41,036 nucleotides of DNA from an uncultured Deferribacteres bacterium (GTDB taxonomy: Bacteria > Zhuqueibacterota > JdFR-76 > DREG01): the NCBI GenBank assembly GCA_913009825.1, contig CAJVYQ010000048.1:1-41036 (forward strand), in the 5' to 3' direction. Made by a program: the position numbers and the translations under genes. Each line of letters starts with the position of its first letter. Positions within the stretch are counted from its first letter, which is position 1. Shown here in pieces: positions 4,738 through 40,808 of this stretch. The notes under the pieces were generated by a model. That model was not told the DNA's origin. It saw only the letters and a program-made list of their open reading frames with translations, and searched no databases.

Positions 4738-5068
4738 TGGAGAATGAATTTTTCAGAAAAACTGTAAATCTTCTTGCACCATCGTAAATCATCCTGTATA
4801 TTTTACGGTGATGAACGAAATAATACAGAAATATCGTTTTTTGAACGGCATTTAGCCCCTATCTCCCGGCAGAAAAATCCGGCGCGCAGCAAACAGGGAA
4901 AACCACATTAGCCCAAAAACAATATCCCGATCTTACATATATATAATTTGGTAACTATTCAGGTGGCCCGCTGATATCGCTAAAAAACGAGAATCGTTAA
5001 CTATTTTGTCCTATTCGTATGATTTCGTGTAATTCGCGGGCTGAATAGGCAAACGATTTTTTCAATTT

Positions 5069-5140
5069 CTCTGCGCCCTCCGCGTCTCTGCGTTAAAAAA
5101 ACAGGCGCTTTAAAACGCAGAGGCGCAGAGAGCGCAAAGG
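5069..5140. repeat. Inverted repeat (CTCTGCG type)
   Basis: A left arm reading CTCTGCGCCCTCCGCGTCTC and a right arm reading AACGCAGAGGCGCAGAG form an imperfect stem around an A-rich and GCGC centre. The type is familiar as an intergenic palindrome in environmental bacterial genomes. No function can be assigned. Confidence 0.5.
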
Positions 5141-5151
5141 AAGCGGATTTG

Positions 5152-5172
5152 TTCAAAAAACTAAAGTGTTAC
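5152..5172 (+). repeat. Dispersed 21-bp repeat, copy 1
   Basis: TTCAAAAAACTAAAGTGTTAC is one base over the quoting limit in full; its core ACTAAAGTGTTAC is shared with copies at 29695-29715, 30080-30100 and 34802-34822. Here it does not lie next to a start codon, which favours a repeat end over a promoter. Confidence 0.5.
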
Positions 5173-5399
5173 GGTATTGTCACTACTCAGGCAGCCCGCG
5201 AAAGACTCAAAAAAAAACAGGAAAAAAGTTAGATGAGATATTTCGATTCTTTCGTGCGCTTTCTGCCTGTGTCAGACAGACGTGAGCTGAATAGTTATAT
5301 AATTTGAATGAAAGAATACCGGCACTTTTCATTTGCTTCCCATCAAATTTGATGTTACTTTAAATTCAACTCAATAAATTCAATTAAAAAAGATTCGGC

Positions 5400-5897
5400 A
5401 TGTCAGATAAATCCGATATTAAAGATTTTCTGCTTCGTGAAAAATGGGCTGAGCTTGAAACCGCGTTACAGAAAAAACCCGCTCTTATTCGACACATCAT
5501 GGGTTTCCTTTACCACGTGGAAGAAGAGATGCGCTGGCGGGCAGTGAAAGCGTTTGGCATTGCCGCCACCGTTTTGCATGACGAAAAAATAAAAGACCTT
5601 CTCCGCCGGATGCTCTGGTCGATGAACGACGAATCCGGCACTTGCTGCTGGTTTATTCCGCAGGCTGTCGGTGAAATCGGCTATCAGCGGCCTGAATTGA
5701 TTGTGGATTTTTTACCCGGATTAGTGTACTTCAAAAACGATCCGGACGCACAACTTCGTAATGGTATTTTCTGGGCACTGGACCGAATTGCCGAATCCGG
5801 AACGGAAATTCCCGATCCGGATGATTTGATGGAACCGGAATCCGTCCTGGAGAACCGGGTGAAAGAAGTCAGGCGTTATTCGGCAAGCCGGAATTGA
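5400..5897 (+). CDS. HEAT-like protein of the DVU0298 type
   Basis: A 165-residue soluble protein whose composition and motifs (MRWRAVKAFG, ESGTCCWFIPQAVGEIG, LRNGIFWALDRIAE) match the small HEAT-like family around Desulfovibrio DVU0298, which has no established function. It is distinct from the three RWLAAEG-type HEAT paralogues in this window. The last two codons (Arg-Asn) and the TGA stop lie inside the end of a 117-bp MITE (5888-6004), so the native C-terminus has probably been replaced. No strong ribosome site precedes the ATG. It is flanked by repeats on both sides and appears monocistronic. Confidence 0.8.
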   Translation: MSDKSDIKDFLLREKWAELETALQKKPALIRHIMGFLYHVEEEMRWRAVKAFGIAATVLHDEKIKDLLRRMLWSMNDESGTCCWFIPQAVGEIGYQRPELIVDFLPGLVYFKNDPDAQLRNGIFWALDRIAESGTEIPDPDDLMEPESVLENRVKEVRRYSASRN

Positions 5898-6004
5898 GCG
5901 ATTCTCTTGTTTTTAAGCTTGTTTTTATTACTTAACGGATTTTCATTTTAAGTGCAAATACGGCTGGCGATTCAGCGAATCGCCCTAAAATTGCTCAATT
6001 TAGG
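5888..6004. mobile_element. 117-bp MITE, copy B1
   Basis: The ends are CCGGAATTGAGCGATT and, inverted, CCTAAATTGAGCAATT. The interior aligns end to end with the 117-bp element at 40692-40808 in reverse orientation, including AACGGATTTTCATTTT and the palindrome GGCGATTCAGCGAATCGCC. No target duplication is evident (GCAAG against TATTA), and the left end has diverged at bases 3-4, so this copy may be old or recombined. It supplies the stop codon of the preceding gene. Confidence 0.8.
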
Positions 6005-10067: not shown

Positions 10068-12131
10068 TTATTTAACTAAAATCATTCTCCCGGTTTCAAT
10101 TAATTTATCCGTAATAATTTTATAAAAATAGATGCCGCCTGTTAAATTAGAACCGTCGAATTTAACTTCATAATTACCCGGCAAACGGACACTATCAACC
10201 AAAATAGAAACTAACCGACCCTCTGAATTAAAGACGGCTATTTTTACATGCGTTCTCTCTGAAACTGAATAGGAGATGCTTGTACTTGGATTAAACGGAT
10301 TGGGAAAATTTTCCAGATTTATTCCTGTCGGCTCAAAACTGTCAAGGTTATTAACTGCGGTAGTACCACGGAGTTGTAATTCGATGACTTCCAAATAGTC
10401 TGCTATTGGAATGGAAATAGTGGTTCCGCTCACATTTTGCGAGCCATTGTCAATCTGGTACACTTTAGCGGACAATGATGTCGCGTGGCTAATTGTTATT
10501 TTTCCGCTTTTGTGATTGTTGTAGGCGAAGATAAAATAATGATCATTGTTTGACGCATCCACATAATATTCAATGCAGGATGTAGACGGCGCTTTAATAG
10601 TGAAAGCGAGATCGGGAGTTAGGTTTGAAATATCGCTTACCTGATCGAAGCCCAATGGCTGCGAGCGCTTGTTGCCCCACTCATCTTTTGTCCCATTATC
10701 GCCGACGAGTGAAACCATTTTATTTTTTAACAGATCATATTCTGCGTCGGAAATTGATTCCGCTCCAGCCAAAACTACATTTTTAATGTATTTCAAATCA
10801 ATATAAGTCATTGTTTCCAGCGGCAAAATTCTAAACGGAATGTGTTTTTGCACCAATTTCAGAAAGGCGTTTTCGTAGGAATCGAAGGTTGATTCTGTTT
10901 CAAAGGTAAAATCCTTGCTCCGCATCGGATAAATAAGAACGGTATTTCGAAACGGAACACGTTTATTCAATACCGGTTCTCTGAGCAAATCTAAAAATGC
11001 AAAACTGTTGGCCGGGGGAGCCGTATCCGCAGTCGGATAATAATTTCCGGAATGGCACAACGTGATTGAAAATTCTCTCCTCGCCTGGTCGGCATCTTTG
11101 GGCCAACCGAGAAACAGCATTGGAAAATTAGGATTTGCATCGCGGGTGGCTTTTGACATTCTGAACGCAGCGAGATAATCACCTTCGGGTTCAATCTCCG
11201 GTGAACAGGCGATACCTCCGCCTATGGTAAACAGAACATCATTTCCGAGGAACGTGCCGCTTTGATAATCGCAAGAAGAGCTTTCAAAGAAGGGCGTAAC
11301 GCCGAGTGAACGAGCGTAATCGGCTAACCCTCCGAGATAGTCGCAAATCACTTCATGTCGAAAATAGACGAATTTTCGCCAGTCTTCAGAAGACCAATCC
11401 ACCCGGGAAGGGATTGGAATGCCATATCCGCTTTGAAATTCCGCTTCAAAATAACTATCTTTGGAGGCCCACTTCGTTCCGAAACTATCCACACCGGGCA
11501 AAAAAGCCGCATCCACATAGATGCCGTCCAATCCAGTGGCGCTCAGCGCTTTTACTCTTTTTTTGAAAATATCGAGCCAGGGGCTAAGCGGCGAAGCCCA
11601 CGCATCCTCTGAGCTGCCGGGGATCCAATCGATTTGAGAAGTAGTGTACCACACCATCTTCCGGCCGGTAATATCTACTTGAAGAAGATTGGGAAAATTA
11701 CGGGCGAATGATGGCATGGACGGGTCATTTTTTGCCCCCACCGTAATCACTTCCAAACCGTTGACGTAGCCAATAACTTTCAGGTTACGGGCATGTGCTT
11801 CATTAACAAGAACTTGAATTCTGCTAAGCGTTTTGGCAAATCCGATTTCATCCACAAAAGTCTCATACGATTGTTCATCATCAATGTAAAAAATAACAAC
11901 ATTAGCTCCGGCATTCTTTGCTGTATTGAGCCTGTGTCTGATCTGTTCATCCGAAGTTTTATCCTCCCCATTCATCCGGGCAAAAGCGGTTTCAAAGGGA
12001 TACAAAATATCAAACGGCCGGACTTTCATTTCGTACGCCCAATCGGGATAGCCATTTTGTGATGAAGCCGCCGCGGCAAAGGATAGCATTGCCAAAAGTA
12101 GAAGAAAAATAATCTGAGGCCAATTTTTCAT
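10068..12131 (-). CDS. T9SS-secreted glycoside-hydrolase-like TIM-barrel protein
   Basis: A 687-residue secreted protein. The signal peptide ends near AAAASSQ. Residues 40-370 look like a TIM barrel of the hypothetical glycoside-hydrolase (GHL) kind, with strand-like segments GANVVIFYIDDE, LKVIGYVNG, LDGIYVDAAFLP and VTPFFESSS; the acidic residues after these strands are candidate catalytic residues. A middle region with VVLAGAESISDAEYD resembles the trimerisation or glutamine-amidotransferase-like domain of such enzymes. The C-terminus (from about 607) is a T9SS type A sorting domain with NFPNPFNPST and a final GRMILVK. GAAAGGACA provides a ribosome site. Substrate unknown; no CAZy family can be named with certainty. 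Confidence 0.75.
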   Translation of the reverse strand: MKNWPQIIFLLLLAMLSFAAAASSQNGYPDWAYEMKVRPFDILYPFETAFARMNGEDKTSDEQIRHRLNTAKNAGANVVIFYIDDEQSYETFVDEIGFAKTLSRIQVLVNEAHARNLKVIGYVNGLEVITVGAKNDPSMPSFARNFPNLLQVDITGRKMVWYTTSQIDWIPGSSEDAWASPLSPWLDIFKKRVKALSATGLDGIYVDAAFLPGVDSFGTKWASKDSYFEAEFQSGYGIPIPSRVDWSSEDWRKFVYFRHEVICDYLGGLADYARSLGVTPFFESSSCDYQSGTFLGNDVLFTIGGGIACSPEIEPEGDYLAAFRMSKATRDANPNFPMLFLGWPKDADQARREFSITLCHSGNYYPTADTAPPANSFAFLDLLREPVLNKRVPFRNTVLIYPMRSKDFTFETESTFDSYENAFLKLVQKHIPFRILPLETMTYIDLKYIKNVVLAGAESISDAEYDLLKNKMVSLVGDNGTKDEWGNKRSQPLGFDQVSDISNLTPDLAFTIKAPSTSCIEYYVDASNNDHYFIFAYNNHKSGKITISHATSLSAKVYQIDNGSQNVSGTTISIPIADYLEVIELQLRGTTAVNNLDSFEPTGINLENFPNPFNPSTSISYSVSERTHVKIAVFNSEGRLVSILVDSVRLPGNYEVKFDGSNLTGGIYFYKIITDKLIETGRMILVK

Positions 12132-12391
12132 GACTGTCCTTTCTACCGCTGCGAGTTGGCTCTGATAGTTTATTATTTAATGAAATACGTTAAATTTGAA
12201 AAACTAATTTCTTCTTGAGAAATTTGACAATCTATTTTTATGCATCCGGGTAAAAGTCCCCTCTCGATAGAGTGAATCTCCTTGCCTTTTATCATGAGTT
12301 CTTCTCGATAGGCGCGTTCAAAAAGTTTCATGCGGCTTTAATGCTTCTTTCCGAATTGATTTTGCAAAACTTGCCACGGTAAAGATTGTTC
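12132..12391. other. Spacer between two T9SS genes
   Basis: The 260 bases carry no gene and no strong hairpin. The promoter of the downstream minus-strand gene presumably lies here, but I cannot place it. Confidence 0.3.
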
Positions 12392-14590
12392 TTACTTCAG
12401 CAAAATCATTTTTTTCGCGGCCCTAAATTCGCCCGCAATGATTCGATAAAGATACGTCCCCGCCGCCACGCTGCGGCCTCTGCCATCCAGCCCATCCCAA
12501 TCGACACGATAAATTCCCGGAGCCTTTTTTTCATTCACCAATGTGCGTATTAATTCACCCTGCAAATTGTAAATGCAAAGCTTGACCCAAACCGCCGGTT
12601 TTCCCGAAGAACGAAGTTCAAAATGAATGGTAGTGGCAGGATTGAACGGATTGGGATAATTTTGCTGCAGATCAAACTTATCCGGAATCTGCAAGCTTAC
12701 TTTTTTCGCTACCGATGTGGTAATATAGGGTTGACTAAAAATTGATGTGTTCCCCGCCGAATCGGTTGCCGTAGCTGTGATATAAGGTCCTGACGGATTT
12801 CCTGCCCATTGAAAGTTACCTGAATTATCAGCAGTTGTATTTCCTTCATAAATTTTCCCCTCATCCTCCGGATCGGAAAAGATTTCAACGATCGAATTGG
12901 CAGGAGCTGTTCCGGATACCGTGCCACTGCTGAAATCAAAAATTGAAGGCGGTGTAAGTGGAATATTTTTGCCTTGTTTGTAAAAAATTCCCGAACCGCT
13001 ATTATTACTGATGGAATTTTGGGTGATTGTATTTTGAATTGTGCTATCCGTGTAGGAATAGATTCCCTGTAAACCGCTATTTGTGATAAGATTATGAGGG
13101 CCAATTTGATTATTTTGAGAACCTGTTGTTAAATAGATTCCTAAAGAAGCATTGCCCAAATTCCCTGTCCCGCCGACCTGGGCGCCGATATTATTCCCAA
13201 TAATCCGATTATTGCTCGATTGTCGGATAGATAAACCGATGTGGAAATTACCTGATATCAGATTGCCTTGTCCCTGCTCCAATCCACCAATAACATTAAA
13301 CGCTCCCCCCCACAACTCAATACCATCCCATTTATTGCCAATTGATTTTGTTCCGGTTACATCGGTACCAATATAATTACCAATAATTTCATTGCGAAAT
13401 CCAGAGATGAGAATGCCGCCATTACCGTTCCCGGAAATAATATTGCGCTCTCCGGGAAGAATTCCACCGATGATATTTTCATAAACTTTGGAATACATCT
13501 CTATCCCCATCCAGCCATTTCCCAGGTCTTTTGTGCCCGTTGCATCCGTTCCGATGAAATTTCCGATGATACGGTTCCCGTGAGCAGAACCAATTATAAA
13601 AAACCCGTTTAGCAGGTTCCCTGAAATCAGATTTCTGAATTCCGGATTATCGCCGCCAATCGTATTAAACGAACCTTGGGAAATATAAATTCCGATGCTA
13701 TTGGGCACCGTATCCGTACCAGCGGCATTGGTGCCAATATAATTTCCCCAAATATGATTATAGTTTGCTTCTTCACCGGGCAGCCAGATACCTGAACCAT
13801 TCATGCCATTGATGATAAGATGAGAAATAGTATTGTGGCTGCTGGAAACTTTCAGAAGAAAATTATCACCAATCATTTTCAATTCATGCCCATTTATTTC
13901 TATTTCCGGACCGTCGGGATTTGTGTCCTGCCCAATAAATGCCTGTTGCGATTTGCCGTCGATCACCAGGTTTGAATCGGTAATCGCCGGTAAAAGAGAT
14001 TGGGGATAAATTGTCCAAACCCCAGTCGATGTGTCGAAATGGGCATCATTTTGAGGAATTTTAAAAACAATCGTGTCGGGGCCGGCGTTTGAGTTTGCTT
14101 GTTCCAGCGCCCGTCGTAACGAACCTTCTCCGGAATCATTCGTATTGGTAACAATATTTGCATTCTCTGTTTGCTCCATAACAGACAGGGAAACAATACA
14201 ATAAGCGCCATCGCCAAAATTACCGTTACCTTTTGTGTAATCGGCAGTAGCCTCATATTCACTGTCAGTACCTGAAGCCCAGATTTTAAAGGACATGGAA
14301 TCACCGGCGGCATAGCCGTCAACCCCGCCGGTCTGGGAATTGTCCACCCAAGCTGTGAGCGCCAGCGGCGGCGTGCCGGTCCAGACCGAAGCGCCAACAC
14401 ATAAATCATTGGGGGTAAACACACTAATTTCGTCACCATTGTGCAGAGAACTGCCATGCAGCATTACACTATCAACGACAATGCTGTAGCTATCTCCCGT
14501 GTTCGCGGTAAATGTGAAATGTTGCGGCTGAGCGTTCAGAAAAACCGGATAAATCAGTGACATGAAAAGCAATGAAACAATTTTCTTCAT
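12392..14590 (-). CDS. T9SS-secreted right-handed beta-helix protein
   Basis: A 732-residue secreted protein. The signal peptide is about residues 1-20. Residues 22-135 form a module (SYSIVVD, GDEISVFTP, LCVGASVW, GNFGDGAY) that occurs twice more in the neighbouring gene at 14705. Residues 165-600 are a right-handed parallel beta-helix made of about 25-30-residue units such as IIGNFIGTDATGTKDLGN and NIIGG..PGERNIISGN, typical of pectate-lyase-like and adhesin folds. A T9SS sorting domain follows (QNYPNPFNPATT to KKMILLK). AAGGAGAGG precedes the ATG. No catalytic residues are recognisable, so an adhesive or carbohydrate-binding surface role is as likely as an enzymatic one. Confidence 0.82.
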   Translation of the reverse strand: MKKIVSLLFMSLIYPVFLNAQPQHFTFTANTGDSYSIVVDSVMLHGSSLHNGDEISVFTPNDLCVGASVWTGTPPLALTAWVDNSQTGGVDGYAAGDSMSFKIWASGTDSEYEATADYTKGNGNFGDGAYCIVSLSVMEQTENANIVTNTNDSGEGSLRRALEQANSNAGPDTIVFKIPQNDAHFDTSTGVWTIYPQSLLPAITDSNLVIDGKSQQAFIGQDTNPDGPEIEINGHELKMIGDNFLLKVSSSHNTISHLIINGMNGSGIWLPGEEANYNHIWGNYIGTNAAGTDTVPNSIGIYISQGSFNTIGGDNPEFRNLISGNLLNGFFIIGSAHGNRIIGNFIGTDATGTKDLGNGWMGIEMYSKVYENIIGGILPGERNIISGNGNGGILISGFRNEIIGNYIGTDVTGTKSIGNKWDGIELWGGAFNVIGGLEQGQGNLISGNFHIGLSIRQSSNNRIIGNNIGAQVGGTGNLGNASLGIYLTTGSQNNQIGPHNLITNSGLQGIYSYTDSTIQNTITQNSISNNSGSGIFYKQGKNIPLTPPSIFDFSSGTVSGTAPANSIVEIFSDPEDEGKIYEGNTTADNSGNFQWAGNPSGPYITATATDSAGNTSIFSQPYITTSVAKKVSLQIPDKFDLQQNYPNPFNPATTIHFELRSSGKPAVWVKLCIYNLQGELIRTLVNEKKAPGIYRVDWDGLDGRGRSVAAGTYLYRIIAGEFRAAKKMILLK

Positions 14591-14627
14591 GGTTCACCTC
14601 TCCTTGATATTAGCGATCATTGAAATA

Positions 14628-14679
14628 AGGAAAGGTGCGGATTATAAATAATTCTTTTCGTATAATCCGCACCTTTCCT
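14628..14679 (-). terminator. Perfect 19-bp stem-loop downstream of the large T9SS gene
   Basis: The arms 14628-14646 and 14661-14679 are exact inverted complements (AGGAAAGGTGCGG with ATTATA on the left) around a 14-base loop. The hairpin lies 26 bp past the stop of the minus-strand gene at 14705, in the right place for a terminator or 3'-end stabiliser. The T-tract on the minus strand is weak (TTATTTC). Confidence 0.6.
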
Positions 14680-14704
14680 GAAGAAAGCTTAATTTAACAA
14701 TATT

Positions 14705-17700
14705 TTATTTGATCAGCGTTGCTTTTTTAATGGAAACGAATGATTCCGTTTTTAAGCGATAAATGTAAATGCCGCTGGGCACCGGATTACCATTTTGATC
14801 CAATCCGTTCCAAAGCAACCGGTTGTTCCCCGCATTCATCTCTTTATTATCGATCAACGTGCGGATTTCGCTGCCTTCAAGATTGAATATCTTCAGTGCA
14901 ACCCTCTCGTTTTTAGGCAATTCAAAGGTAATCAAGGTCTCCGAGTTAAACGGATTGGGGTAATTCTGATGGAGAGAAAATGTGCCCGGCACGGTTTGCC
15001 CTGTCAATTCAACCGATGCAAAAGCACCGGCGCCGAATTTACCGGTACCTTTGCTGAAGCCGGCATGGAGAACAATCTCTTTTCCAGTGTTTTTATCCCA
15101 GAATTTGAAGATCATGTTCTCCCCGTCGCGATATCCATCCGATTCATCGGTTCGCTCATCATCTGCCCATGCAGCAATGCCAACAATAGCGTTACCATTC
15201 CAGGCGCCGGCGCCCACACATAATCCTGATTCTGTGAAAACACCTATCTCATCGCCAATTTGAGGCTGAACATCATTTAACTGAAGAGAACGGATCACAA
15301 TACTGTAACTTTCACCGGTTTTTGTGTGAGGTGTAAAATGCGCAGCCGCACGATTTGACACGGAAAAAGTATGGGGGAAACTTTTTGCCATAAGGGAAGC
15401 GGCAGGATAAGTTAATGTGTCCGGGGCATTGACGTAGAGTTTGTATCCTTCGCCGGGCGACATGTTGTTTAAATTGTTGATCATGTTTGGAATGAAGAAC
15501 TTGCCGTTATCCGCTTTAATAATAGCCAAATTATTCAAAATTGAATTGAGCGCTGTTTCAGCTCCCATGGACGTGGTTGGCAAATAGCTGATAAAATTCC
15601 ATCCGGAAGACAATGGCATGAGTGTATCTATTTTGACGGGCTGACCGGTCAGGGATATTTGTTCCGGTGAATTAAAGTATATTTTATATCCTTCCAGTAT
15701 ATTCAGTTGGCCGATATTATTAATGGCCTTAGGAATATAAAATTGCCCGTCATTATTCACAACAATAGCCAGGTTGTTCGCTGCGCCAAAAACATTATCC
15801 GGAGCTAAATCGGCAGGATTCACATTGAAAGAAATCCAGCTCCAGCCCTGAGCCAATGCCAAAGTTTGGGTTATCGATGATAAGGCTGCTAATTGAGAAA
15901 TACGGGCATAGGGTCCGTCACCAAAATTACCATTACCCCGACTGTATGTGACAGTTGCCGGATATTTGCTATCAGCGCCTATGCTCCATACTTTAAATGT
16001 CATCGGGTCTCCTACTGCATAACCATCGACAACCTGTTGTGTTTGGCTGTCATCGCCCCAGGCAGTTAGAGCCAAAGGTGTGCTGCCATCCCAAACAGAG
16101 GCGCCCACGCACAATCCTGCCGGCGTAAAAACGGCAACTTCATCGCTAATTGTTAACGGATTTCCGTCAAGAGTGGCGGCATCAACAACGATACTGTAGC
16201 TGTTACCGGTATTGGAGGTAAAGACAAAATGTGGTTGTCCTCCTGGGTTTCCGGTAAACATCACAGCAAACTCGGAAAGGTGATTCACTTCACCGCAAAT
16301 GATGTTTGCGTTCACGTCCAGCGACGTTGTAATATCCACCCATTGCGGATTTTCATACACCTGCAGCTTCAGCGCCGCTTCCTGCGCAGGAGTCAGACCG
16401 GTATCATCATAATGAATACAAATTTCGATAGTACCAGTGAAGGTTGCTGTGGTAGTGATATTATAGTAGGTGGGGTTGGCCGCCGGTGTGATGGTGAATC
16501 CGTTTGGCGGGGGAGTCCCGGTGGTTGAAGTTGTCATTTTCGTATTGCCGGGAGTCGCAACATTTCCGAATGTGATACCAGAACCATTTCCCAGGTCTAC
16601 CTGAATATTTGCTCCGGTCTGGGTGTTTTCCTGGGCAAAAACAGTAAATGCCGCATCACTCCAATCAAATATTCTGCTATCAATATTATTAGCATCCGGA
16701 TCCGTATAATCCGGATCATTTTTTCTGGCATCTGCCACTCGAATTTTTCCCTCCTCGGGAACAGGAAAGCCTGAGGTTTGGACTGTCCAATTGAAGGAAC
16801 CGTTATTAGGTGTATTGGCGACAATCCGAAACCAGAAAACGGTGCCCAACTGTTCAAGTTGAATATCAATGCGTACTGGAGAGTTAAAATTCTCGCTCGA
16901 CCATCGAATCTCATGTTGAGTACCCACCCCCCACTTCTCGCCGCCATTGGGACTGATCACTTGCAGAGATGGCACCGTGGTGTTCAAAATATTTCCATAA
17001 ATATCAAAATCATGGGTGTTAAAATTACGCTGATCCTCCCAAACCACCAAAGCATTCGGCTCTTTGGAACTAACTGCTATTGCCGGATTATAAGGATCCT
17101 CATTTCCGGTAACAGAGGAAAGAATTACATTATCCGGAACTGAACCATTAAAACCACCGGACCCCATAGAGTTAGCACGGATATGGTTAACCTGAGTATC
17201 ATTTTGAGAATCCGGGCCGGGTGTTTCCCGCCAAGCTACCATAAATTTATTGGCAAAGGAATTGTATTCAACTACGGGATTCCAGGTTTCAGCATAAGTA
17301 GAATACGCCCAGTGGGACCATATTTTTGAAACGGGAAAAGTCTCTGTAGAGACACCATCTGTTGTGAGATAATCAATTTTACCAGCATCAACAATCCCGC
17401 ACCAAATTCCTGTCCATTGAAGCCCTTGCCAAGTCATATTATTGTCCTTGTCAGCCCAAACTAATAAGAATACGGGTTTGTCATCCCAATAGCCGAAAGC
17501 CAGATTCCATCCTTCAGGACTACCGATTTTTGACTGCTGAAAGGGAATCGAATAATAAAGCTGACCGGATTGCGTATCCGTTAAAGTGAGCATAGCCTTG
17601 CCATCGCTGTCAAGCATCATAGGACCATTAGGATTTTCAATGGAGATTAGATATCTTCCTGATGGGGTTTCCGGAGATATCACCGGCGCATAAGCAATTG

Positions 17701-18379
17701 AATATTCAATAGTCTTATCACAAAGTCTGTCACCGGATTTATAAATCACTTGTGCTGTGTTCAACGGTTGGCCAACAGCGTCAATTTTCCGGGAATAAAA
17801 TCGAGTATAGCAAACACCCTGAAAGGTACCCGGAAACTTTTCCTGTCCAATTACCAGATAATTCATTGCCTTTATATTATAAAGTATGGTCGGATTATTT
17901 GCATTTGGAATTAATAAAGTTGTTCCTCCTATTTTGGTTCCTGTGGCAGATAACCGCTGTCCATAGATACTTAAATCAGGAGCAATACCGGAGACAAAGA
18001 CAACTAAATATTCATTTTTCTGCGAATTATAAGCAACAGAAGGCAACCCCTCCGCATAATCTGAGATAGTAAAAACAGTGCCTGTCTGGCCCAAATGGCC
18101 AACTCTCATAGCTAAAAGTCTTTTCATTTGACTTGAATATGATTCCAGCCAGACAACTAAATATTCATTGTCGGTAGAATTATAAGTAACATCACAACCA
18201 TAATCTTTAGTATTGCCTTGATAAATTGGGAAATCAGCAAGGGCTGGAAAAGTAAGTAGTAAGATTAATAATAACCTAAATTGAGCGATTCTAATGTCAT
18301 TCCGTAGGAATCTTGTTGGTTTAATGCACAAAACTAACAAGATTCTTTCCCGCCTGCGGTCGGGCAGGCAGAATGACAA
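14705..18379 (-). CDS. Large T9SS multidomain secreted protein, 5' end interrupted by a MITE
   Basis: The reading frame is open for 1224 codons from a TTG that lies inside an inserted MITE. That start has no ribosome site and is probably not native. The pre-insertion start is at 18456 (see the fragment at 18415-18456). From the N-terminus: several YNSxxNEYLVVW-type repeats suggesting a beta-propeller (about 50-450); a Kre9/KNH-like domain beginning ISPNGGEKW (about 470); a GNVATPGN/HLSEFAVMF domain; the SYSIVVD/DEVAVFTP module (about 716-830); two tandem GW-ISF modules; a second SYSIVI/DEIGVFTE module (about 1011-1126); and a T9SS sorting domain (NYPNPFNSET to KKATLIK). Whether a secreted product is still made is uncertain: MITE-encoded basic residues run in frame into the retained LLLILLLTFPALA. 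Confidence 0.8.
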   Translation of the reverse strand: MSFCLPDRRRERILLVLCIKPTRFLRNDIRIAQFRLLLILLLTFPALADFPIYQGNTKDYGCDVTYNSTDNEYLVVWLESYSSQMKRLLAMRVGHLGQTGTVFTISDYAEGLPSVAYNSQKNEYLVVFVSGIAPDLSIYGQRLSATGTKIGGTTLLIPNANNPTILYNIKAMNYLVIGQEKFPGTFQGVCYTRFYSRKIDAVGQPLNTAQVIYKSGDRLCDKTIEYSIAYAPVISPETPSGRYLISIENPNGPMMLDSDGKAMLTLTDTQSGQLYYSIPFQQSKIGSPEGWNLAFGYWDDKPVFLLVWADKDNNMTWQGLQWTGIWCGIVDAGKIDYLTTDGVSTETFPVSKIWSHWAYSTYAETWNPVVEYNSFANKFMVAWRETPGPDSQNDTQVNHIRANSMGSGGFNGSVPDNVILSSVTGNEDPYNPAIAVSSKEPNALVVWEDQRNFNTHDFDIYGNILNTTVPSLQVISPNGGEKWGVGTQHEIRWSSENFNSPVRIDIQLEQLGTVFWFRIVANTPNNGSFNWTVQTSGFPVPEEGKIRVADARKNDPDYTDPDANNIDSRIFDWSDAAFTVFAQENTQTGANIQVDLGNGSGITFGNVATPGNTKMTTSTTGTPPPNGFTITPAANPTYYNITTTATFTGTIEICIHYDDTGLTPAQEAALKLQVYENPQWVDITTSLDVNANIICGEVNHLSEFAVMFTGNPGGQPHFVFTSNTGNSYSIVVDAATLDGNPLTISDEVAVFTPAGLCVGASVWDGSTPLALTAWGDDSQTQQVVDGYAVGDPMTFKVWSIGADSKYPATVTYSRGNGNFGDGPYARISQLAALSSITQTLALAQGWSWISFNVNPADLAPDNVFGAANNLAIVVNNDGQFYIPKAINNIGQLNILEGYKIYFNSPEQISLTGQPVKIDTLMPLSSGWNFISYLPTTSMGAETALNSILNNLAIIKADNGKFFIPNMINNLNNMSPGEGYKLYVNAPDTLTYPAASLMAKSFPHTFSVSNRAAAHFTPHTKTGESYSIVIRSLQLNDVQPQIGDEIGVFTESGLCVGAGAWNGNAIVGIAAWADDERTDESDGYRDGENMIFKFWDKNTGKEIVLHAGFSKGTGKFGAGAFASVELTGQTVPGTFSLHQNYPNPFNSETLITFELPKNERVALKIFNLEGSEIRTLIDNKEMNAGNNRLLWNGLDQNGNPVPSGIYIYRLKTESFVSIKKATLIK

Positions 18380-18424
18380 AACTATTTGGGTGGTTGTTTC
18401 AAGCTATAAATCGCTCAATTTAGG
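18275..18424. mobile_element. 150-bp MITE, copy A1, inserted in a signal-peptide coding sequence
   Basis: Perfect 16-bp terminal inverted repeats, CCTAAATTGAGCGATT and its complement, bound the element. The 5-bp target duplication AATAA lies at 18270-18274 and 18425-18429. The interior holds a GTCATTC...GAATGAC palindrome and aligns along its length with the 150-bp element at 33423-33572. Taking out the element and one AATAA restores an uninterrupted frame for the T9SS gene. Confidence 0.9.
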
Positions 18425-18456
18425 AATAAAATTAAAATACCGGAAATAATTTTCAT
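18415..18456 (-). pseudogene. Detached start of the large T9SS gene
   Basis: After GGAGGTCCGCT, an ATG opens the peptide MKIISGILIL, then runs into the MITE and stops at codon 14 (TGA within the terminal repeat). Joined across the MITE minus one target copy, it would continue LLILLLTFPALA, giving a textbook signal peptide in frame with the 1200-residue body. This is strong evidence that the native start is 18456 and that the insertion is recent. Confidence 0.85.
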
Positions 18457-18877
18457 AGCGGACCTCCTTCTGGGGTAATTTGTAACTATTCAGGCTCAGT
18501 ATTCCTTGTAGAGCGAGACGCTGTCTCGCTAAGGCGATTCAGCGAATCGCCTTACATAAAAGAACACAATGCTGAATAGTTACGATAATTTTTTTAAATA
18601 CATTTCTATTTTTATTATGTATCAATTTGATGAATTACATAAAATTTTTTGTGACAACTCAGGTTCAGGGTTCAAAAGTTCCCGGTTAAAGGTTTAACGG
18701 TATGAAACTTCAAAAAATATAATCAAAAATTTATCAATTTGCACTACTATTATTACGAACGGGTCAAAGATATTACATAAAATTTTTGTTGCTTTATGTT
18801 TTGCAAAGTTTTAAATTTTTTAGCAACATGTTTATGTATTTCTTCATTTTAATTCGTAATAAATAAGAAAGCGCTAA
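18457..18877. other. Intergenic region between the T9SS gene and the sigma factor
   Basis: This holds the native ribosome site of the T9SS gene (minus strand, next to 18457), the 102-bp repeat at 18482-18583, and roughly 290 AT-rich bases before the ECF sigma factor. The sigma-factor promoter must be in the latter part, but no consensus is clear. Confidence 0.5.
18482..18583. repeat. 102-bp MITE-like element with GTAACTATTCAG ends
   Basis: The ends GTAACTATTCAG and CTGAATAGTTAC are perfect 12-bp inverted repeats. Inside are two palindromes, AGCGAGACGCTGTCTCGCT and GGCGATTCAGCGAATCGCC. The second palindrome also sits in both 117-bp MITEs, which have different ends. No clean target duplication was found. 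Confidence 0.65.
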
Positions 18878-19441
18878 ATGAGTGTGAATTTTAAAGCATC
18901 GAACGAAGAAGATGCTGTGTGGCTACAAAAATATTTTGAGACTAAAGACACAAAATATTTTGGTAAGTTATATGAAAAGTATAAACAGCAAATATTTTTT
19001 AGATGTAAAAAGTTGCTGCAAAATACCGAAGAAGCAAAAGACATGACAAGCGATACATTCATAAAAGCCTTCGAAAAGATACATACCTTCAGATTAGGTT
19101 CTCCATTTTATCCCTGGTTGAGCCGTATCGCTGCCAATTTCTGTATCGATCAATTGCGAAAACGGAGCCGCTATCAATATGAAGACATCGAACAAATATA
19201 CGCTGTATCTTACTCTGAAGAAACAATGGAGGAACGTGAATACCAGAATGAATTGAAACATAAAATTCAAGTAACAATCGAAAAATTGAAAACAGAACAA
19301 AAGCGCTGTTTTTCATTGTTTTATATTTACCAATTATCTTACGAAGAGATTACCGAAAGAACGGGATTCCAGCCTAATGCGGTGCTTTCTTATATTCAAA
19401 ATGGACGGCGAAGATTTAAAATATTTATGGAGCAGTTATAA
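18878..19441 (+). CDS. ECF-type sigma-70 family RNA polymerase sigma factor
   Basis: A 187-residue sigma factor with only regions 2 and 4. Region 2 spans FGKLYEKYKQQIFFRCKKLLQNTEEAKDMTSDTFIKAFEKI and the promoter-melting FYPWLSRIAANFCIDQLRK (each given here only to place the region). Region 4 contains the helix-turn-helix LSYEEITERTGFQPNAVLSY. It redirects RNA polymerase to a small regulon, probably of envelope or surface genes. The TAA stop overlaps the next ATG by one base, so it is translationally coupled to its probable anti-sigma factor. Its target promoters are not identifiable here. Confidence 0.93.
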   Translation: MSVNFKASNEEDAVWLQKYFETKDTKYFGKLYEKYKQQIFFRCKKLLQNTEEAKDMTSDTFIKAFEKIHTFRLGSPFYPWLSRIAANFCIDQLRKRSRYQYEDIEQIYAVSYSEETMEEREYQNELKHKIQVTIEKLKTEQKRCFSLFYIYQLSYEEITERTGFQPNAVLSYIQNGRRRFKIFMEQL

Positions 19442-33422: not shown

Positions 33423-33572
33423 CCTAAATTGAGTGATTCCGAGCTTAAATTATCCGCCAACGAGTTTTGTCATTCTACCTGCCCGGCCACAGGCGGGGAA
33501 GAATCTTGTCAATTCTGTGCACAAAACCAACCAGATTCCTACTGAATGAGCGTGAGAATCGCTCAATTTAAG
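33423..33572. mobile_element. 150-bp MITE, copy A2, in the leader of the Omp85 fusion gene
   Basis: The ends are CCTAAATTGAGTGATT and AATCGCTCAATTTAAG, flanked by a perfect 5-bp target duplication TAAAA (33418-33422 and 33573-33577). The interior aligns with copy A1 in reverse orientation, including the TGTCATTCT...GAATCTTGT core. It lies 30 bp upstream of the start codon of the minus-strand Omp85 fusion and just after the HEAT operon end. Confidence 0.88.
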
Positions 33573-40691: not shown

Positions 40692-40808
40692 CCTGAATTG
40701 AGCGATTGCAGGGCGATTCGCTGAATCGCCAACCGGATTTGTATTAAAAATGAAAATCCGTTTCGTAAAAAAAACAAACTCAAAAACAAGAGAAGCACTC
40801 AATTCAGG
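40692..40808. mobile_element. 117-bp MITE, copy B2, in the leader of the BON gene
   Basis: The ends are CCTGAATTGAGCGATT and AAGCACTCAATTCAGG. A perfect 5-bp target duplication TTTAT lies at 40687-40691 and 40809-40813. It has the same length and interior as copy B1 (5888-6004), inverted, including the GGCGATTCGCTGAATCGCC palindrome. Confidence 0.88.

Follow-up and report, generated by a model that had tools for sequence, protein, structure and literature searches.

A recent and probably inactivating MITE insertion in the gene for a large secreted T9SS-tail protein of an uncultured Deferribacteres bacterium

The window analyzed here, a stretch of 41,036 nucleotides from an uncultured Deferribacteres bacterium, contains a 150-bp MITE within the beginning of a gene that encodes a large secreted protein with a T9SS tail. 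We consider it highly probable that this is a recent insertion, moved by an IS1380-family transposase, which has probably abolished the function of the gene. In the explanation that we favor, a non-autonomous MITE would have inserted recently just past codon 10 through the action of such a transposase, duplicating 5 bp of the target. The native start and ribosome site, being intact, would still direct the translation of 13 residues, up to a stop inside the MITE; the protein itself would not be made, and the host gene would most likely be null or nearly null in the present lineage. The 1189 downstream codons would look healthy since the event was recent and decay of the gene has yet to set in. 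The insertion would then represent a clean natural case, in an uncultured lineage and with the empty site found, of a young MITE disabling the gene for a secreted protein.

The insertion and the interrupted gene

The element itself has the features expected of a MITE. It is 150 bp long with perfect 16-bp arms and an AATAA duplication on both sides, it is present in multiple copies, it has no transposase-sized ORF, and the site that it occupies is empty in a relative (Table 1).

Table 1. Features at the insertion site, in coordinates of the window
Feature	Position	Strand	Remarks
Remaining host CDS	14705..18274	-	1189 intact codons and stop; C-terminal T9SS sorting domain
Target site duplication AATAA, copy 1	18270..18274		Ortholog has a single copy (TTATT on the coding strand)
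MITE, 150 bp	18275..18424	no strand	Based on sequence, TIRs and about 300 relatives by ends
TIR arm 1, CCTAAATTGAGCGATT	18275..18290	+	Matches the other arm perfectly, 16 bp
Open frame from MITE into host ORF	18275..18403	-	Possible starts: TTG at 18379, 18340 and 18331 only
TIR arm 2, AATCGCTCAATTTAGG	18409..18424	-	Matches the first arm perfectly, 16 bp
Premature TGA stop, supplied by MITE	18415..18417	-	Codon 14 of the native frame
Target site duplication AATAA, copy 2	18425..18429
Native ATG	18454..18456	-	Kept in ortholog (L101) along with Shine-Dalgarno
Native ribosome site AAGGAGG	18463..18469	-	Ortholog has AAAGGAGG at the same place
Second MITE, another family, ends GTAACTATTCAG	18482..18583		8-bp duplication with 1 mismatch; 26 bp upstream of native ATG
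Divergent sigma-70-type gene	18878..19441	+	Synteny anchor; ortholog counterpart L101:2297-2851

The host gene lies on the minus strand and its product starts with MKIISGILIL, after which (codon 10) comes the MITE. Translated with the MITE present, the native frame gives MKIISGILILFLN and then stops, yielding a 13-residue stub; when the flanks are joined without the MITE and one AATAA, they read MKIISGILILLLILLLTFPALADFP. The distance from the ATG to the stop of the gene is 3752 nt, and subtraction of 155 leaves 3597, which corresponds to 1199 codons, i.e., 1198 residues and the stop. The preliminary description is borne out on all of these points: it had reported the 150-bp element with its perfect 16-bp ends and 5-bp AATAA duplication at the coordinates given here, it had stated that removal of the MITE with one AATAA restores the frame and the signal peptide exactly, and it had placed the native ATG at 18456, with its ribosome site, in frame with about 1200 downstream codons after such removal. 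Its label of a T9SS protein is also supported as far as the C-terminal sorting domain is concerned, for which the host protein scores 35.6 bits with TIGR04183 (cut-off 23) and 28.1 bits with PF18962 (cut-off 27). By inspection, a Sec signal peptide is present in the joined flanks and in the ortholog; the MITE-bearing allele has no intact N-terminal Sec signal peptide because the MITE splits it. For the host gene, the insertion is probably a loss of function.

The genome has 96 matches to T9SS sorting domains and, on this basis, it likely encodes T9SS machinery. Within the window, three consecutive minus-strand genes (10068-18274) each end in a T9SS sorting domain.

An empty site had been predicted for sister strains. 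It was found in an independent genome of another family of the same order (G006, contig C79), in which the same divergent sigma-70 gene adjoins the ortholog. At the insertion point, the ortholog has one TTATT, and its signal peptide, MKKYSGISILLFILLLTFPAFA as compared with MKIISGILILLLILLLTFPALA in the host gene, is unbroken. Furthermore, the alignment of the ortholog sequence MKKYSGISILLFILLLTFPAFADFP with the joined flanks MKIISGILILLLILLLTFPALADFP passes across the junction without a gap. Over 620 codons, dN/dS between the host gene and this ortholog is 0.24 (dS ~0.83), a value that spans the whole divergence between the two and is hardly informative on how long ago the insertion took place. 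A second, more distant ortholog is present in another genome (G028). Both came from a whole-genome search; a scan of the genome contigs with the host protein gave no relative.

The MITE family and its likely mover

When the 16-bp end was searched for throughout the genome (an assembly of 5.1 Mb in 123 contigs) with up to 2 mismatches, 287 and 305 matches (592) were obtained, compared with 0 and 0 for the reversed control; consequently, there are about 300 such elements in this genome. Exact 5-bp duplications, mostly A+T, flank 47 of 71 complete copies, a non-random sample taken by stretches in order of similarity rank and contig, and only 1 copy has a duplication of 6 bp. The lengths of the copies group at 117, 130, 149-150, and 154 bp. 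The window contains three more elements with these ends, at 5888-6004, 33423-33572, and 40692-40808, two of them with exact 5-bp duplications.

The copies avoid genes. When the empty site is reconstructed, only 3 of the 47 fall within an ORF of at least 120 codons, versus 85% of random nearby positions (p ~1e-32). Two of the three (L039 and L007) were considered as gene-breaking insertions and rejected, since an ATG start with a ribosome site comes straight after the element. With these cases just preceding a start and ribosome site, the window copy is the only true gene breaker among the 47 with clean duplications.

The same ends, with 16 of 16 bp on both sides, flank an 1802-bp element (L059:1039-2840) that carries an IS1380-type transposase gene, and for this reason, an IS1380 transposase is, as judged from the sequence, the likely mover of the MITE. 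The product of this gene scores 70.6 bits with PF13701 (cut-off 34.7) and, as a frameshifted fragment, 163.4 with NF033539, below the cut-off of 180. The element is the only nearly complete IS1380-type copy in the assembly, and its transposase gene, L059:1274-2834 (G000:C21:66773-68333), is split over two frames. In another genome, G051, 1.7-kb IS1380 relatives with near-identical ends encode an intact transposase of 463 residues (L179) that is 60% identical in protein sequence to that of L059. Relative to this intact protein, the L059 frame break falls at a 19-bp palindrome, CCTGCCTGTGGCAGACAGG, and a second palindrome within the gene, of 18 bp, adds six extra residues in frame; there are about 97 such palindromes in the genome. 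It may be that the resident transposase no longer works and mobility has ceased, or that an intact copy is absent from the assembly.

The MITE thus resembles the IS1380 family (PF13701, NF033539) in its ends, both those of the element in this genome and those in G051. However, it has only the terminal 16-18 bp in common with the L059 insertion sequence, so that a simple internal deletion of the L059 copy would not have produced it. One MITE copy (L059:905-1034) stands beside the IS1380 element, about 5 bp away, as if one had inserted at the end of the other.

The 5' region of the host gene has been hit twice, since the second MITE upstream of the ATG is also absent from the G006 ortholog. Its family, with GTAACTATTCAG ends and 8-bp duplications, has 189 and 180 exact end matches genome-wide, several of them near contig ends, and sequence of this family is also found at 4951-5298 of the window. 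The GTAA ends and 8-bp duplication suggest IS66, and an IS66 transposase was considered as the mover of this second family; it was rejected, as PF03050 is absent from the assembly. A candidate autonomous copy at C9:6685-8847 was likewise rejected because all it comprises is a 159-bp element and, next to it, an ordinary ORF of 342 residues, with no transposase.

Age of the insertion and alternative explanations

The window copy differs from the family consensus at six positions, and each of the six bases recurs among the 46 aligned copies, in 5 to 20 of them, leaving zero private substitutions in 150 bp. The nearest copy (G000:C13:40556-40709) is separated from it by 1 substitution, which is private to that other copy, and one 4-bp indel. 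Because it has no private substitution, the window copy is young, and the suggestion in the preliminary description that the insertion is recent agrees with this result. By the rule of three, we estimate an upper bound for its age of ~2% substitution per site, as compared with a dS of ~0.83 to the ortholog. At this bound, we would expect a neutral ORF of the size of the host gene to gain a few stops. The open downstream ORF fits a younger event and continued use alike. Against the favored explanation, it can be said that the downstream frame has remained open, as it also would under continued expression.

Another explanation is that the MITE provides a new N-terminus, as had also been proposed at the outset. 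In this model, translation would start at a TTG inside the element and run through ...KPTRFLRNDIRIAQFR into LLLILLLTFPALA, giving a longer, working signal peptide and a functional gene. Part of the idea stands: a frame of 43 open codons runs from inside the MITE into the host ORF, the remaining hydrophobic core has basic residues ahead of it in the sequence, and a precedent that serves as a lead is the proposal of MITE-derived signal peptides for Yersinia (YPO1552; Delihas 2007, PMC2229807). However, the substitute start would have to be one of three TTG codons (or a rarer codon), as there is no ATG or GTG, and none of the candidates has a good Shine-Dalgarno. In addition, the RNA hairpin of the MITE (-57.9 kcal/mol, z = -8.4) buries the TTG candidates, and no promoter-like site was found on the minus strand of 18200-18900. 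Furthermore, the consensus of the MITE family has the same 43-codon open frame; consequently, the read-in frame is a property of the family, and no site-specific selection is needed to account for it. Given the lack of a good start and the stable hairpin, the idea of a substitute N-terminus is weak, and we regard it as unlikely.

It is still less probable that the insertion serves as a reversible switch, in which precise loss of the MITE with one AATAA would restore the gene and cells of both states would coexist. The piggyBac family is known for clean excision. IS1380 transposases form the outgroup of this family in published trees (PMC10813416), and precise removal of the MITE does bring back the frame and the signal peptide exactly. 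However, such restoration by precise excision is true of any insertion with a duplication, and the analysis revealed no excised allele. The frameshift in the transposase gene of L059, the one nearly complete IS1380 copy that the assembly contains, also argues against a switch. Finally, although a false join at a repeat present about 300 times might be imagined in a 123-contig assembly with high-copy repeats, an assembly artefact is scarcely credible here because the two flanks correspond to a single uninterrupted stretch of the ortholog, and the 5-bp duplication that they share is not something that a misassembly would create.

The same ends in other phyla and comparison with known MITEs

When 85,000 species genomes were searched for pairs of exact 16-bp ends placed 95-125 bp apart, 52 stretches (L127-L178) were found in about eight phylum-level groups, with phylum assignments that are those of MAG record titles and may be affected by contamination. 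The groups comprise Planctomycetota (Scalindua, Brocadiaceae), Desulfobacterales and other deltaproteobacterial groups, Nitrospirota, Nitrospinota, Neomarinimicrobiota, Calditrichota, KSB1, and a gammaproteobacterial MAG. With 32 fixed bases, we estimate that essentially no such pair of exact ends would be expected by chance. The interiors of the MITEs differ from group to group, and exact 5-bp duplications are present in 35 of 51 stretches. A transposase close to L179 occurs in 1 of 16 other MITE-bearing genomes, as a fragment. Proteins with PF13701 are found in 8 of these 16 without such ends nearby, the exception being a fragment in G088 (L199), which has an exact end beside it. Conservation of the ends throughout a wide IS1380 group would explain this pattern, as would loss of the movers or their absence from the assemblies.

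These results have led to a broader hypothesis, which we put forward tentatively and hold to be possible rather than probable. In this model, CCTAAATTGAGCGATT would mark a set of MITEs that extends across phyla, has interchangeable and unrelated interiors, and owes its movement to one IS1380-type transposase lineage; in the present genome, this set would have grown to about 300 copies and moved recently, breaking genes such as the host gene and perhaps reversibly restoring them. With ends of this reach, it becomes testable whether MITEs of different phyla are mobilized by one transposase lineage and whether their interiors are captured rather than inherited from the parent insertion sequence. 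A literature search for the 16-bp end sequence found no paper.

Like ERIC/RU-1, RU-2/YPAL of Yersinia, Correia, and RPE of Rickettsia (PMC2229807, PMC10969869), the elements described here are small, have TIRs, reach high copy number, and are mostly intergenic. Some known bacterial MITEs carry open frames and lie in genes (PMC2229807, PMC10969869), and in a Yersinia case, the element contributes part of a predicted signal peptide (PMC2229807). The window MITE differs from these families in having IS1380-type ends and 5-bp duplications. In addition, it interrupts the native frame, which stops at codon 14, instead of lengthening it. In this respect, it is unlike the in-frame MITE-ORF fusions of the Delihas or RPE type; a fusion in frame that has a proper start is absent. 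In abundance, the closest parallel drawn here is with ERIC in Photorhabdus luminescens, which has 711 copies (cited in PMC10969869); in both cases, one small element is present in hundreds of copies per genome. The sequences are unrelated, however, and in the present genome, two families coexist, each with hundreds of end matches. The window insertion is a known kind of event, ordinary insertion damage, caused by a new MITE family that is likely of the IS1380 type.
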